A DNA stretch of 64,000 nucleotides, taken from positions 1 to 64,000 of the forward strand of contig JAUNNB010000005.1 in the NCBI GenBank assembly GCA_030531645.1, read 5' to 3'. Position numbers and translations under genes: made by a program. Origin of the DNA: Candidatus Saccharimonadota bacterium (GTDB lineage: Bacteria > Patescibacteriota > Saccharimonadia > Saccharimonadales > Saccharimonadaceae). Shown piece by piece: positions 17,796 through 60,165 of the stretch. Position 1 is the stretch's first letter. Every line of letters starts with the position of its first letter. The notes under the pieces were generated by a model. The model saw nothing but the letters and a program-made list of their open reading frames with translations, ran no database searches and was not told the DNA's origin.

Positions 17796-19019
17796 ATGAA
17801 AAAATCCAAAACACCTACTGAAAAAGTTAAGTGGAGTGAAAAGAAGGTCGGGTTAGCCGGAGCCATTGCTGCCGTAATCATCATGTTTGCTGGTGGCGTT
17901 GTGCTAGGCGCTAATTGGGAAAACCTTTGGTATTCCTGGGGACCATACCTTGGCCTAACACGCAAAATTGACAAAGATATTGATTTATCTAGCATTGAAA
18001 GACTTTACCGCAAACTCGCCACATATTACGACGGTGATTTGGATAAAGAAAAACTACTCGACGGTGCCAAAAAGGGCCTCGTCGCTGCAGCCGGTGATGA
18101 ATACACCACATTTATGAATTCTTCTGAAGCCACCAACTATCTCGATAGTCTAGACGGCAGTATTAAGGAGGCTGGTATCGGCATTGAATTTGGTAAACGC
18201 GAAGATTATATCAAGGTCATTCGCACCCTTCCAGACAATCCAGCTCGTCGTGCAGGCGTGCTCGCTGGCGATATTATCTTTGCTGTAGATGACGAAGAAG
18301 TTTGGGATAAAGACGCCGAATATATTTCTGGCAAACTTCGTGGTAAGGCCGGTGACAAAGTAAAACTTACAGTCGTCCGCGACAACAAGAAAAAAGATTT
18401 CGAACTCACTCGTGAAAAGATTAACAATGTATCCGCCGACATTACTTACGACGGTAAGACCGCTATTATCAGCGTCTATCGCTTTAGCTCGGACACTGGC
18501 ACATTAGTTTCATCATTCCAAAAAGAAATGAAAGAAAAAGGCGTTGAAAAGATTATCCTAGATCTCCGCAATAACGGCGGTGGATATGTTTCAGCGGCCA
18601 AAGACTTGCTTAGCCTCTGGATTAGCGGCGAAAAAATCTTCACCCAGAAGGGGAAGGACGGAAGCGACAATAATACCTATGCTTCTCGCGACAAAAATGT
18701 CTTCAAGGACATGAAGACTGTCGTGCTCGTCAACGAATCTACTGCATCCGCTTCCGAAATCGTAGCCGGTGCTCTTAAGGACTACGGCAAAGCTACCATC
18801 ATTGGCAAAACCACCTTTGGCAAAGGCGTTGTTCAGCAAATGCTTAATGTTGAAGATGGCGGCATCCTCAAAGTCACCATTGCACGCTGGTACACTCCAA
18901 ATGGCACCTCGATTAACGGTTCCGGTATCAAGCCAGACATCGAAGTCGACCGCACCTACGAACAAATCAACAAAGATCAAGATCCACAACTAGACAGAGC
19001 AAAGCAAGAAATTAAGTAA
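17796..19019 (+). CDS. ctpA: carboxyl-terminal processing protease (S41, CtpA-like)
   Basis: A 407-residue membrane-anchored serine protease. Transmembrane helix ~20-38, a PDZ domain around 125-200, then the S41 core. The catalytic dyad is Ser318 (NESTASASE) and Lys343 (FGKGVVQ), 25 residues apart as in other Ctp proteases, with Gln347 following. Ctp proteases trim or degrade envelope proteins, often cell-wall hydrolases, which fits its place after the CHAP gene. TATAAT ends 7 nt before the ATG. The stop codon lies within the arm of the structured repeat element. Confidence 0.93.
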   Translation: MKKSKTPTEKVKWSEKKVGLAGAIAAVIIMFAGGVVLGANWENLWYSWGPYLGLTRKIDKDIDLSSIERLYRKLATYYDGDLDKEKLLDGAKKGLVAAAGDEYTTFMNSSEATNYLDSLDGSIKEAGIGIEFGKREDYIKVIRTLPDNPARRAGVLAGDIIFAVDDEEVWDKDAEYISGKLRGKAGDKVKLTVVRDNKKKDFELTREKINNVSADITYDGKTAIISVYRFSSDTGTLVSSFQKEMKEKGVEKIILDLRNNGGGYVSAAKDLLSLWISGEKIFTQKGKDGSDNNTYASRDKNVFKDMKTVVLVNESTASASEIVAGALKDYGKATIIGKTTFGKGVVQQMLNVEDGGILKVTIARWYTPNGTSINGSGIKPDIEVDRTYEQINKDQDPQLDRAKQEIK

Positions 19020-19123
19020 TATATAAAGGGGAGTCAATTTCCAACGGGGAAATTAACAGGGAGCGAGCCACATAACGATGTGCGCGAGCGACCGGCCCCG
19101 TATATATTACTTATTTCTTGCTT
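19002..19123 (+). ncRNA. structured repeat element, copy 1 (72-nt core plus long flanking stem)
   Basis: The core at 19028-19099 matches 66 of 72 bases with a core at 52145-52216. GGGG/CCCC and GTC/GAC pair the ends. Hairpin 1 is ATTTCC/GGAAAT and hairpin 2 is CACAT-AACG-ATGTG. The flanks 19002-19025 and 19101-19123 are complementary over 23 bp with one bulged T. The 5' arm runs through the last codons and stop of ctpA, and the 3' arm ends 4 nt before the pyk -10 box. No known RNA family is recognised. Confidence 0.8.
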
Positions 19124-19127
19124 ATGG

Positions 19128-19133
19128 TATAAT
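19128..19133 (+). promoter_or_regulatory. -10 box of pyk (TGGTATAAT)
   Basis: TATAAT ends 7 nt before ATG 19141, predicting a leaderless mRNA. It starts 4 nt after the structured repeat element. Confidence 0.7.
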
Positions 19134-19140
19134 CTAGTGT

Positions 19141-20616
19141 ATGAGTACACTTTTTAAACGCACAAAAATCTTAGCCACAATCGGCCCGGCCGTCTACAGT
19201 GAACAAGCTATCGAAGACCTTATCATGGCCGGTGTTAACGGCTGCCGTCTTAACTTCTCTCACGGCGATTACAAAGAACGCGACCAACAAATCGAATGGA
19301 TTCGCAAAGCTGCCGCCAAGAAAGGCCGCTCCGTTGCCATCTTGCAAGATCTCCAGGGCCCAAAGATTCGTCTCGGTGAAATCCAGAATAATCACTTTGA
19401 TGTCCACGTGGGCGATGAATTAATTCTTGATAATTCCATTACCGAACACGATGGAAGCAACATTATCCCAGTCCAATATAATCTCGCTGAGCGTATGAAA
19501 GTTGGCGAACCTCTCAGTATGTTTGACGGAAAAGTAAAATCCCATGTTACTGATATCGTCTCAAAAACTGCCGTTAAAGTGAAGATTGAAAACGAAGGTT
19601 TCATTATGAGCCACAAAGGCCTCAACCTTCCTGATACAGATTTTGGTGGCGACATTATTACCGAAAAAGATATGGCAGATATTGAATTTGGTGCCTCACG
19701 CGACTTCGACTACGTTGCTATGAGTTTCATCCAGTCCGCCGAAGACATCGATAAGCTTCGCCAAATTTTACTTTCTCACGGTTCTACTGCTCAGATTATC
19801 GCTAAAATTGAAACCAAAAAAGCTATCGAGAATGATGAAGTTATGGAAGCTATCGTTGAAGCCAGTGATGGCATTATGGTCGCACGCGGTGATATGGCCG
19901 TCGAAGCAGGGAACGAAGTCGTTCCAACTGTCCAGCGCAAACTCGTCGCACTTTGCCGCAAGCATGCTAAACTCTGTATTGTTGCAACCCAGATGATGGG
20001 CTCAATGGTTGATAATCCTGAACCATCCCGTGCAGAAGTCTCCGATGTTGCTAACGCCGTTATCCAAGGCGCCGATGTTGTGATGCTCAGTGATGAAACC
20101 GCCAACGGCAAATACCCAGTAGAAGCCGTCAAGCAAATGAAAAAAGTTATTCTCTATTCGCAGAATCACTCATACGCTATGCCGTTCAAAGATTTTGTTA
20201 AATCTATTTGGGGGCCAAACACTCCTGGCAATAGCACCCCAGCTGATCCAGTCCACGAACGCTATACCGCCATGTCTCGCTCCGCCGCTCGCGTAGCCGA
20301 ACAAATCGGTGCCGACGCTATTATTTGCCAGACCGCTTCCGGTGCCACAGCCGCTGCCATTGCCGCCGAGCGTCCAAATGTTCCAATTATTTCCGTCACA
20401 TCCAATGCTCGTGTTGCTGGTCAACTCGCACTTTGCTATGCCAACTCCGCATTTGTCCGTCCATATTCTGATACCTATGGCATCGACATCGCACAGGAAC
20501 TCAAGGAATCTGGTTACATTCCTGCTCGTGAAGATGGCACTATCACAGTTGTGCTCGTCTCTGGCCAACCAAACACCGAGGGTGGCACTGACACTATCCA
20601 AGTAAGAAGAATTTGA
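19141..20616 (+). CDS. pyk: pyruvate kinase
   Basis: Makes pyruvate and ATP from phosphoenolpyruvate and ADP. The 491-residue protein has KILATIGPA at the start, RLNFSHG, LQDLQGPKIRLG, IAKIETKKAIEN, the metal/phosphate region MVARGDMAVE, and VVMLSDETANGKYP. A normal-length C-terminal domain is present. It ends in TGA and is followed after 9 nt by pgk with its own Shine-Dalgarno, so the two ATP-yielding steps of lower glycolysis are co-transcribed. Confidence 0.97.
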   Translation: MSTLFKRTKILATIGPAVYSEQAIEDLIMAGVNGCRLNFSHGDYKERDQQIEWIRKAAAKKGRSVAILQDLQGPKIRLGEIQNNHFDVHVGDELILDNSITEHDGSNIIPVQYNLAERMKVGEPLSMFDGKVKSHVTDIVSKTAVKVKIENEGFIMSHKGLNLPDTDFGGDIITEKDMADIEFGASRDFDYVAMSFIQSAEDIDKLRQILLSHGSTAQIIAKIETKKAIENDEVMEAIVEASDGIMVARGDMAVEAGNEVVPTVQRKLVALCRKHAKLCIVATQMMGSMVDNPEPSRAEVSDVANAVIQGADVVMLSDETANGKYPVEAVKQMKKVILYSQNHSYAMPFKDFVKSIWGPNTPGNSTPADPVHERYTAMSRSAARVAEQIGADAIICQTASGATAAAIAAERPNVPIISVTSNARVAGQLALCYANSAFVRPYSDTYGIDIAQELKESGYIPAREDGTITVVLVSGQPNTEGGTDTIQVRRI

Positions 20617-51478: not shown

Positions 51479-52008
51479 TATTTATCGTTCCAACGCTTAA
51501 TAGCTTTTTCGATAACTTCTTTAGCTTCTTCGACACCAAAGAAACCTTCAACCTTAGTAGAACCAGGTTTCTTCATATCTTTGTAATGATTGAAGTGGTA
51601 TTCAATCTGGTCAAGTGTACGCTTAGGAAGATCCTCAAGCTTCTGGTAACAATCACCGTTATTGCGATCATCAGCAGGTACACAGATAATCTTATCATCA
51701 ACTTCACCATCATCAACAAACTTCATATATCCGAGGATACGAGCCTGCATCCAGATACCAGTTGTTAGAGGTTGATCGGTAATCATCAATACATCAAGCT
51801 CATCACCATCTTCATCGATAGTCTGAGGAATAAATCCATAGTTACAAGGCTTAGCAAAAGCCATCGGTTCAACACGATCAAGCATGAAGCAAGCGTGCTC
51901 TCTATCCCACTCAATTTTGTGGTTGCTCCCTGTAGGAATCTCAATCACTACATTAAGCTCACCATTTTTGTAATCCCCCGGTTCCAGAACTTTATTAAAG
52001 TCTGCCAT
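51478..52008 (-). CDS. ppa: inorganic pyrophosphatase (family I)
   Basis: Hydrolyses pyrophosphate and pulls biosynthesis forward. The 176-residue hexameric type is recognised by VVIEIPTGSNHKIEWD, YGFIPQT and the metal-binding DEDGDELDVL. AAGGAG precedes the ATG. First gene of the ppa-rarA pair. Confidence 0.96.
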   Translation of the reverse strand: MADFNKVLEPGDYKNGELNVVIEIPTGSNHKIEWDREHACFMLDRVEPMAFAKPCNYGFIPQTIDEDGDELDVLMITDQPLTTGIWMQARILGYMKFVDDGEVDDKIICVPADDRNNGDCYQKLEDLPKRTLDQIEYHFNHYKDMKKPGSTKVEGFFGVEEAKEVIEKAIKRWNDK

Positions 52009-52120: not shown

Positions 52121-52238
52121 CATAAAAATAATATTATTTCCTAAGGGGAGTCATTTTCCGACGGGGAAAATAACAGGGAGCGAGCCACGTAACGACGTGC
52201 GCGAGTGACCGGCCCCGTGGAAATAATTTATTTTTATG
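52121..52238 (+). ncRNA. structured repeat element, copy 2 (72-nt core plus long flanking stem)
   Basis: Core 52145-52216 differs from copy 1 at six bases. Four of the six form two compensatory pairs (TTTTCC/GGAAAA in hairpin 1; CACGT-AACG-ACGTG in hairpin 2). Flanks 52121-52141 and 52219-52238 pair with each other over ~19 bp with a small bulge but are unrelated to copy 1's flanks. The 3' arm ends 1 nt before the -10 box (TATCAT) of the 52252 gene. Confidence 0.8.
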
Positions 52239-52251
52239 CTATCATATAGAT

Positions 52252-52548
52252 ATGAATAAAATATCTGGCATAGGTAATTTCACCTCTAAAACCGAAAAAA
52301 ACGATGTCTCATACATCGTAAATGACAAAGTTTTCTTAATCGAACATCTAAGTAGCAACGGAGAAATCAAAACCATAGAGATTAGAACAGATAATAATCT
52401 CAAAAATGTCCTCAAAGAGCGTTTTGAATCTGTTATGGACTCCCGCTACTTCGGTCGTGGCGGCATCGAAATCGTAATGAGCGGTCAGCTCACCTCTGAA
52501 GATATAGATGATCTTATTAGACTAAGTTATAATCTCACCAAACAGTAA
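52252..52548 (+). CDS. 98-aa cytosolic protein, unknown function
   Basis: An alpha/beta protein (MNKISGIGNFTSKTEKNDVS...) with no signal or membrane segment and no recognised family. TGCTATCAT ends 6 nt before the ATG, just after structured element copy 2. It abuts the convergent argS end. Confidence 0.65.
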   Translation: MNKISGIGNFTSKTEKNDVSYIVNDKVFLIEHLSSNGEIKTIEIRTDNNLKNVLKERFESVMDSRYFGRGGIEIVMSGQLTSEDIDDLIRLSYNLTKQ

Positions 52549-59809: not shown

Positions 59810-60165
59810 TATTCTTCTCCAGGCAACTGATCTTCGTCGCTTATGTCTGTTTCTTCTTTCACTTCGTCTGTCTCACCAGCTTGTGATTGTTCTGCCTGAC
59901 ATGCAGCCAATTCGTCCTCGTCAATAATACCGTTCAAATCCTTATCCTGACATACACCAATGAAGACTTCAACGGTTGGGTTAATAGCATCCTGGTTAAA
60001 CAATTCAGGGTCTGGATCCTTCAATGAAGTAGTCACAGCTTTGATTGTCTTATACTCCGCCCAAAGCTCATCTGGATTACCCATAATTGCATTCACACCA
60101 AAGAAGGCAGCAAGGGTCCCCACAGCCGCAATGATAACAATTGAAATTATATCGGATTGTTTCAT
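59809..60165 (-). CDS. small pilus-operon membrane protein with Cys-clamped EF-hand loop
   Basis: A 118-residue protein: transmembrane helix ~5-28, a short domain, then a canonical calcium loop DKDLNGIIDEDE (residues 74-85) bracketed by Cys72 and Cys89, and an acidic tail. The same V-G-x-C..C loop occurs in the adjacent PilO-like protein, so the two are probably related. It overlaps both neighbours (4 bp and 1 bp). It may replace PilP or be a second PilO. Confidence 0.75.
   Translation of the reverse strand: MKQSDIISIVIIAAVGTLAAFFGVNAIMGNPDELWAEYKTIKAVTTSLKDPDPELFNQDAINPTVEVFIGVCQDKDLNGIIDEDELAACQAEQSQAGETDEVKEETDISDEDQLPGEE

Follow-up and report, generated by a model that had tools for sequence, protein, structure and literature searches.

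A family of palindromic elements in Saccharibacteria with a shared two-hairpin core and site-specific outer stems

Two copies of a structured element in the window

The DNA analyzed here (the window) is a stretch of 64,000 nucleotides from a Candidatus Saccharimonadota genome (contig JAUNNB010000005.1, positions 1 to 64,000). It contains two copies of a structured element, both of them intergenic: copy 1 lies between the genes for an S41 (CtpA-like) peptidase and pyruvate kinase, and copy 2 lies beside an inorganic pyrophosphatase gene (Table 1). The first-pass annotation of the window had reported that the two cores match at 66 of 72 positions; this was borne out, and the next-best 72-mer match in the whole window reaches only 35/72. 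The six differences were likewise recovered as described: four fall in two compensatory pairs (19037/19053, A-T to T-A; 19072/19079, A-T to G-C), one is a loop change at 19043, and the last is at 19089. The flanks of the two copies are wholly different, yet they are self-pairing inside each copy. Relative to dinucleotide shuffles, both copies have a strongly stable RNA fold (copy 1, -53.9 kcal/mol, z = -8.9; copy 2, -47.6 kcal/mol, z = -7.3).

Table 1. Coordinates of the element copies, their neighbors, and a second hairpin family
Feature	Position	Strand	Basis
Copy 1 core: GGGG/CCCC closing stem, two hairpins, tandem G.A internal loops	19028..19099	+	66/72 to copy 2; covariance model R1, 77.7 bits; fold
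Copy 1 left arm, outer stem	19002..19027	+	Sequence, fold
Copy 1 right arm, inverted complement of left arm	19100..19123	+	Sequence, fold
Copy 1 hairpin P2 (variable stem)	19036..19054	+	RNA fold, covariation
Copy 1 hairpin P3: tandem GA/GA internal loops, AACG tip	19059..19093	+	RNA fold, covariation
Copy 2 core	52145..52216	+	Covariance model R1, 78.4 bits; 66/72 to copy 1
Copy 2 left arm	52121..52144	+	Fold
Copy 2 right arm	52217..52238	+	Fold
S41 (CtpA-like) peptidase with PDZ domain, host gene upstream of copy 1	17796..19019	+	Pfam PF03572, 8e-53
Pyruvate kinase, gene downstream of copy 1	19141..20610	+	Pfam PF00224, 1.3e-101
-10-like TATAAT, immediately beyond copy 1 right arm	19128-19133		Sequence
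Inorganic pyrophosphatase, divergent neighbor of copy 2	51481..52008	-	Pfam PF00719
Small ORF downstream of copy 2	52252..52545	+	No Pfam match
Hairpin family of ~175 nt	L203:15785-15963; L188:4416-4590; L206:13461-13635; L209:16913-17089; L214:2799-2977		

The left arm of copy 1 covers the final codons and the stop of the S41 peptidase gene (AKQEIK and stop), and the tails of this peptidase in relatives end in DPQ(M/L)D(K/R)AK... A BLAST search with the copy 1 arms found no other match in their own genome. Other repeat-like sequences occur right after the ctpA stop codon in the relatives L408, L411, L415, and L420. The covariance model gave a third, weak match in the window (59999-60092, minus strand, 20.6 bits), which lies within a coding gene, has no long stem that we noted, and is probably a chance match or a decayed copy. 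The description of the element as a two-copy one holds only within the window: at least four strong copies are present in the genome as a whole (two beyond those of the window, by BLAST), and the genus has hundreds. The position directly upstream of a leaderless promoter, also given in the first-pass annotation, applies to the two window copies; elsewhere, most copies are within genes, so it is no general feature.

A genus-restricted family with a covarying core

We ran the covariance-model search that the first-pass annotation had suggested, and it recovered the element, with covarying copies, in 35/36 genomes of the window's genus (1 to 33 copies each) and in 0/24 genomes from other genera of the order. 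Species genomes and viral contigs were also scanned with one exact core pattern. Among the matches listed from 84,980 species genomes were only Candidatus Saccharibacteria metagenome-assembled genomes, many of them from the ruminant gut; the viral contigs gave 0 matches to this pattern, and viral spread was set aside on that count. A search of the Rfam covariance models gave no match, in agreement with the first-pass annotation, which had recognized no familiar RNA class in the element.

The core, of about 67 to 70 nt, consists of a closing stem, the variable hairpin P2, and the conserved hairpin P3 with its tandem G.A internal loops. It forms a covarying two-hairpin junction: both partners have changed in 16 of 18 pairs when 112 distinct copies are compared, and 91.9% of the cells pair. 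The covariation score is 0.392, as against 0.106 for shuffled and at most 0.10 for slid alignments, although fitting the alignment to the model favors the score. These observations support the selection on structure that had been proposed from the two window copies. Unrelated copies match the query over only ~80 to 87 nt, and we delimit the element as a miniature mobile palindromic element of about this length, comprising the core and a short inner stem.

Other hairpin repeats were seen in the same genomes. A second, larger family (~175 nt; Table 1) has arms of 24 to 26 bp that differ between sites and an AT-rich core with a GGCGTGAGACGAGCGA-type motif. Further multi-hairpin repeats with long inverted-repeat ends occur at L188:11609-11743, L198:16427-16601, L201:10205-10329, and L218:146-276. 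Smaller hairpins are nested in several copies of the present element, in the P3 loop at L066:2343, L067:2063, L070:859, and L214:10491, and at L211:15248; they are of a GCCCCTTGGGACGCG type and of a 75-nt GACGGAAC/GTTCCGTC type.

Insertion between and inside genes

The element inserts both between genes and inside them, in either orientation. Of the 90 non-orthologous copies, 52 are crossed by an ORF whose frame stays open through them (sense in 30 cases, antisense in 22, and in several phases); an ORF here is an open frame spanning the copy rather than an annotated gene, and the other 38 pool intergenic and disrupting copies. The host genes include those for ArgRS, MnmA, TruB, Obg, and class I synthetases, and the same loops are hit repeatedly, namely, the ArgRS N-linker, two sites in MnmA, one site in TruB in many species, and Obg. 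The ArgRS N-linker measures 36 to 38 aa when empty in close relatives versus 64 to 66 aa when filled, a gain of 84 to 90 nt that is similar to the ~80- to 87-nt unit. The ArgRS of the window's own genome has an extra segment that is not a comparable hairpin. Judging from the open frames, the in-gene copies that survive are presumably translated as an extra peptide, mostly in linkers and loops. Mobility of the element would likewise account for the scatter of near-identical cores.

Comparisons with empty sites yielded no clean single-event case with high nucleotide identity and a visibly copied flank. In two of the closest comparisons, the net gain is 114 and 121 nt, above the length of the unit. 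The Obg copy in one of them apparently arose by local duplication and brought its arms along from another copy of this gene, ~1 kb away; in the other comparison, the absence from the sister may be a deletion, because a third species has the element. No target site duplication is visible at Obg or at G175:C8, and a possible repeat of ~25 nt is seen at G166:C5.

Outer arms are specific to the site

That the flanks are unrelated between copies and self-complementary within each, as first noticed in the window, is true of the wider family: the stem score between left and right flanks, taken across 77 copies, has a median of 17.5, versus 6.5 (maximum, 12.1) for pairing between flanks of different copies. 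The stem around the core has a median of 24 Watson-Crick pairs as measured, with bulges clustering ~16 to 18 nt out on the left arm and 11 to 13 nt out on the right arm. When non-orthologous copies have cores of 97% identity or more (48 pairs), their arms are 0.555 identical against a background of 0.49, with arm identity above 0.8 in only one pair, and only the innermost 8 nt of the arms are partly shared between non-orthologous copies. Arm composition shows no correlation with local GC. Orthologous copies of three close species have changed by 2.5% in the arms, 1.9% in the core, and 6.1% in the flanks; copies that stay in place evolve 2 to 3 times slower than their flanks, and this points to constraint by the host more than to a purely selfish element.

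The arms at the TruB site are 0.66 to 0.68 identical across species, with cores in the same or opposite orientation, versus 0.36 for the arms of other sites, and they are common to cores of different subtypes in both orientations. Their own complementarity is 0.91 where the stem is present versus 0.42 at homologous stem-free positions. These arms sit on host codons, and host codon similarity is the same as in uninserted or differently inserted genes. The inserts in MnmA (L377, L386, and L392) and ArgRS (L076) are complementary to the flank of their own host at a score of 14, versus at most 7 to 10 with the flanks of other species at the same site; in several longer MnmA inserts, no stretch complementary to the conserved codons of the host is seen. 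Arms occupy host gene positions in MnmA, ArgRS, and TruB alike. Given arms shared by site, their overlap with host codons, and the complementarity of inserts to their own flanks, the outer stem belongs to the site and is made of host DNA, in these three genes at least. Copying of the arms from elsewhere in the genome was rejected as a source: a search of 2.6 Mb, counting matches outside elements and orthologues, gave 51 matches versus 30 with shuffled arms, with no clear excess.

Origin of the arms and competing explanations

We favor, with a probability of roughly 0.7, a miniature mobile palindromic element that owes the self-complementarity of its flanks to template switching. On this reading, the stem would in its outer ~17 bp be host flanking DNA and not element sequence. 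This flank would most likely become self-complementary, at or after insertion, through template switching of the DNA polymerase (fold-back copying) at the hairpin, which would also hold each arm complementary to the other and now and then invert the core; in TruB, either arm could have been the template for the stem. Template switching as the agent is our inference; it is known to homogenize the arms of inverted repeats and to invert their spacers (PMC8604942; PMC8794818).

A more specific version, which we offer tentatively and regard as on balance doubtful, is that insertion itself rewrites the target. Once a flank is joined, the inner stem would close, and self-primed fold-back synthesis would copy ~17 to 25 nt as an inverted repeat on the opposite side. 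If this is true, the outcome of transposition would be an inverted duplication of the target flank around the element, which we know from no described element. No mobilizer was found among two candidates considered. The Y1 transposase (PF01797) was rejected, being detected in only 1/36 genus genomes and absent from nearly all carriers. Resident reverse transcriptases (PF00078), such as would accompany a retroelement-borne RNA (retron, DGR, or group II), are commoner in the genus (23/36 genomes versus 1/24 other genomes), but they are patchy and missing from the copy-rich genomes G003, G004, G018, G025, and G026 and from the window's genome. The reverse transcriptases of the genus look to be of several kinds, and two resemble the DGR type on visual inspection only.

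The element might instead carry its own arms of ~25 bp, which would later diverge under selection for pairing only. Such an origin would suit the covariation of the arms, a pair of Obg copies with arms 88 to 95% alike, and a trio subfamily that is 87 to 92% identical over ~110 nt. We nevertheless consider it unlikely, as arms in place change nearly as slowly as the core, yet cores at least 97% identical have essentially unrelated arms; moreover, arms are common to a site irrespective of core orientation, and one arm consists of host codons in several genes. Insertion into preexisting palindromes, with the arms as the old target, was among the suggestions of the first-pass annotation, and we now find it quite improbable because no palindrome is present in Obg and TruB at homologous sites that lack the element. 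Near-perfect palindromes of 17 to 25 bp are also not otherwise expected in unrelated coding genes, even if the outer TruB pairs (ATTCAA/TTGAAT) use codons resembling native ones on both sides and the P3 loop of several copies holds an inserted hairpin of a second type.

A cis-acting structured RNA (terminator, insulator, ribozyme, or leader) would operate at the RNA level, and a transcript-end RNA, an insulator RNA, and a ribozyme had all been entertained for the window copies, which are intergenic and adjoin promoter-like sites. The strong covariation, the stable fold, and the slow divergence in place could be read in the same way. However, more than half of the copies are inside ORFs, with 22/52 antisense, and such roles are unsupported because ORF copies in both orientations keep the frame. 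With the core also found in both orientations within similar arms and with no counterpart in Rfam, we hold an RNA-level role to be very improbable indeed. The remaining suggestion made from the window, a non-autonomous mobile element, named the right class.

Comparison with known systems

Rickettsia palindromic elements (RPEs; Ogata et al. 2000), the hallmark of which is palindromic repeats lying in frame in protein genes (reviewed in PMC10969869), resemble the Saccharibacteria element in several respects. Both are short palindromic repeats with several subfamilies, both occur in many copies within a single genus of bacteria with reduced genomes, both insert in frame in protein genes (here, 52/90 copies), and neither has a known mobilizer. 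The Saccharibacteria element differs in its unrelated lineage, its two-hairpin junction core with tandem G.A loops, its use of both orientations and several frames, and its site-specific outer stem overlying host sequence. We would compare it with RPEs by insertion habit rather than file it under them.

Miniature inverted-repeat transposable elements (MITEs) are similar in being small, non-autonomous, and dispersed in the genome with inverted-repeat ends. Their terminal repeats are conserved between copies because the transposase reads them, whereas here the outer arms differ at every site (0.555 identity with near-identical cores), and neither a parent transposase nor a consistent target duplication was seen. 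The REP/RAYT (TnpA-REP) system also has dispersed structured palindromes, but REPs are 20 to 40 bp and extragenic (PMC3733652), and their Y1 (HUH) transposase is absent from 35/36 genus genomes here. By the features tested, the element is neither a MITE nor a REP/RAYT system. Matched arms, spacer inversion, and in-gene palindromes are also features of arm homogenization by template switching (PMC8604942; PMC8794818) and of the coding palindromes of Nematomorpha mitochondria (PMC6649704). There, the process is mutational or the palindromes have no dispersed core in common, whereas the Saccharibacteria element has a common core at the tip.

Copies recur in particular linkers and loops of essential translation genes, and these homologous sites in many species offer a natural test of how long in-gene DNA hairpins are born and how their pairing is kept up. 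They also caution that many species-specific peptide insertions in the tiny genomes of Saccharibacteria are mobile DNA. The element is a new family of protein-coding palindromic elements in Saccharibacteria, with RPE-like insertion, its own core structure, and site-made stems, which suggests a second large example of a class best known from Rickettsia.
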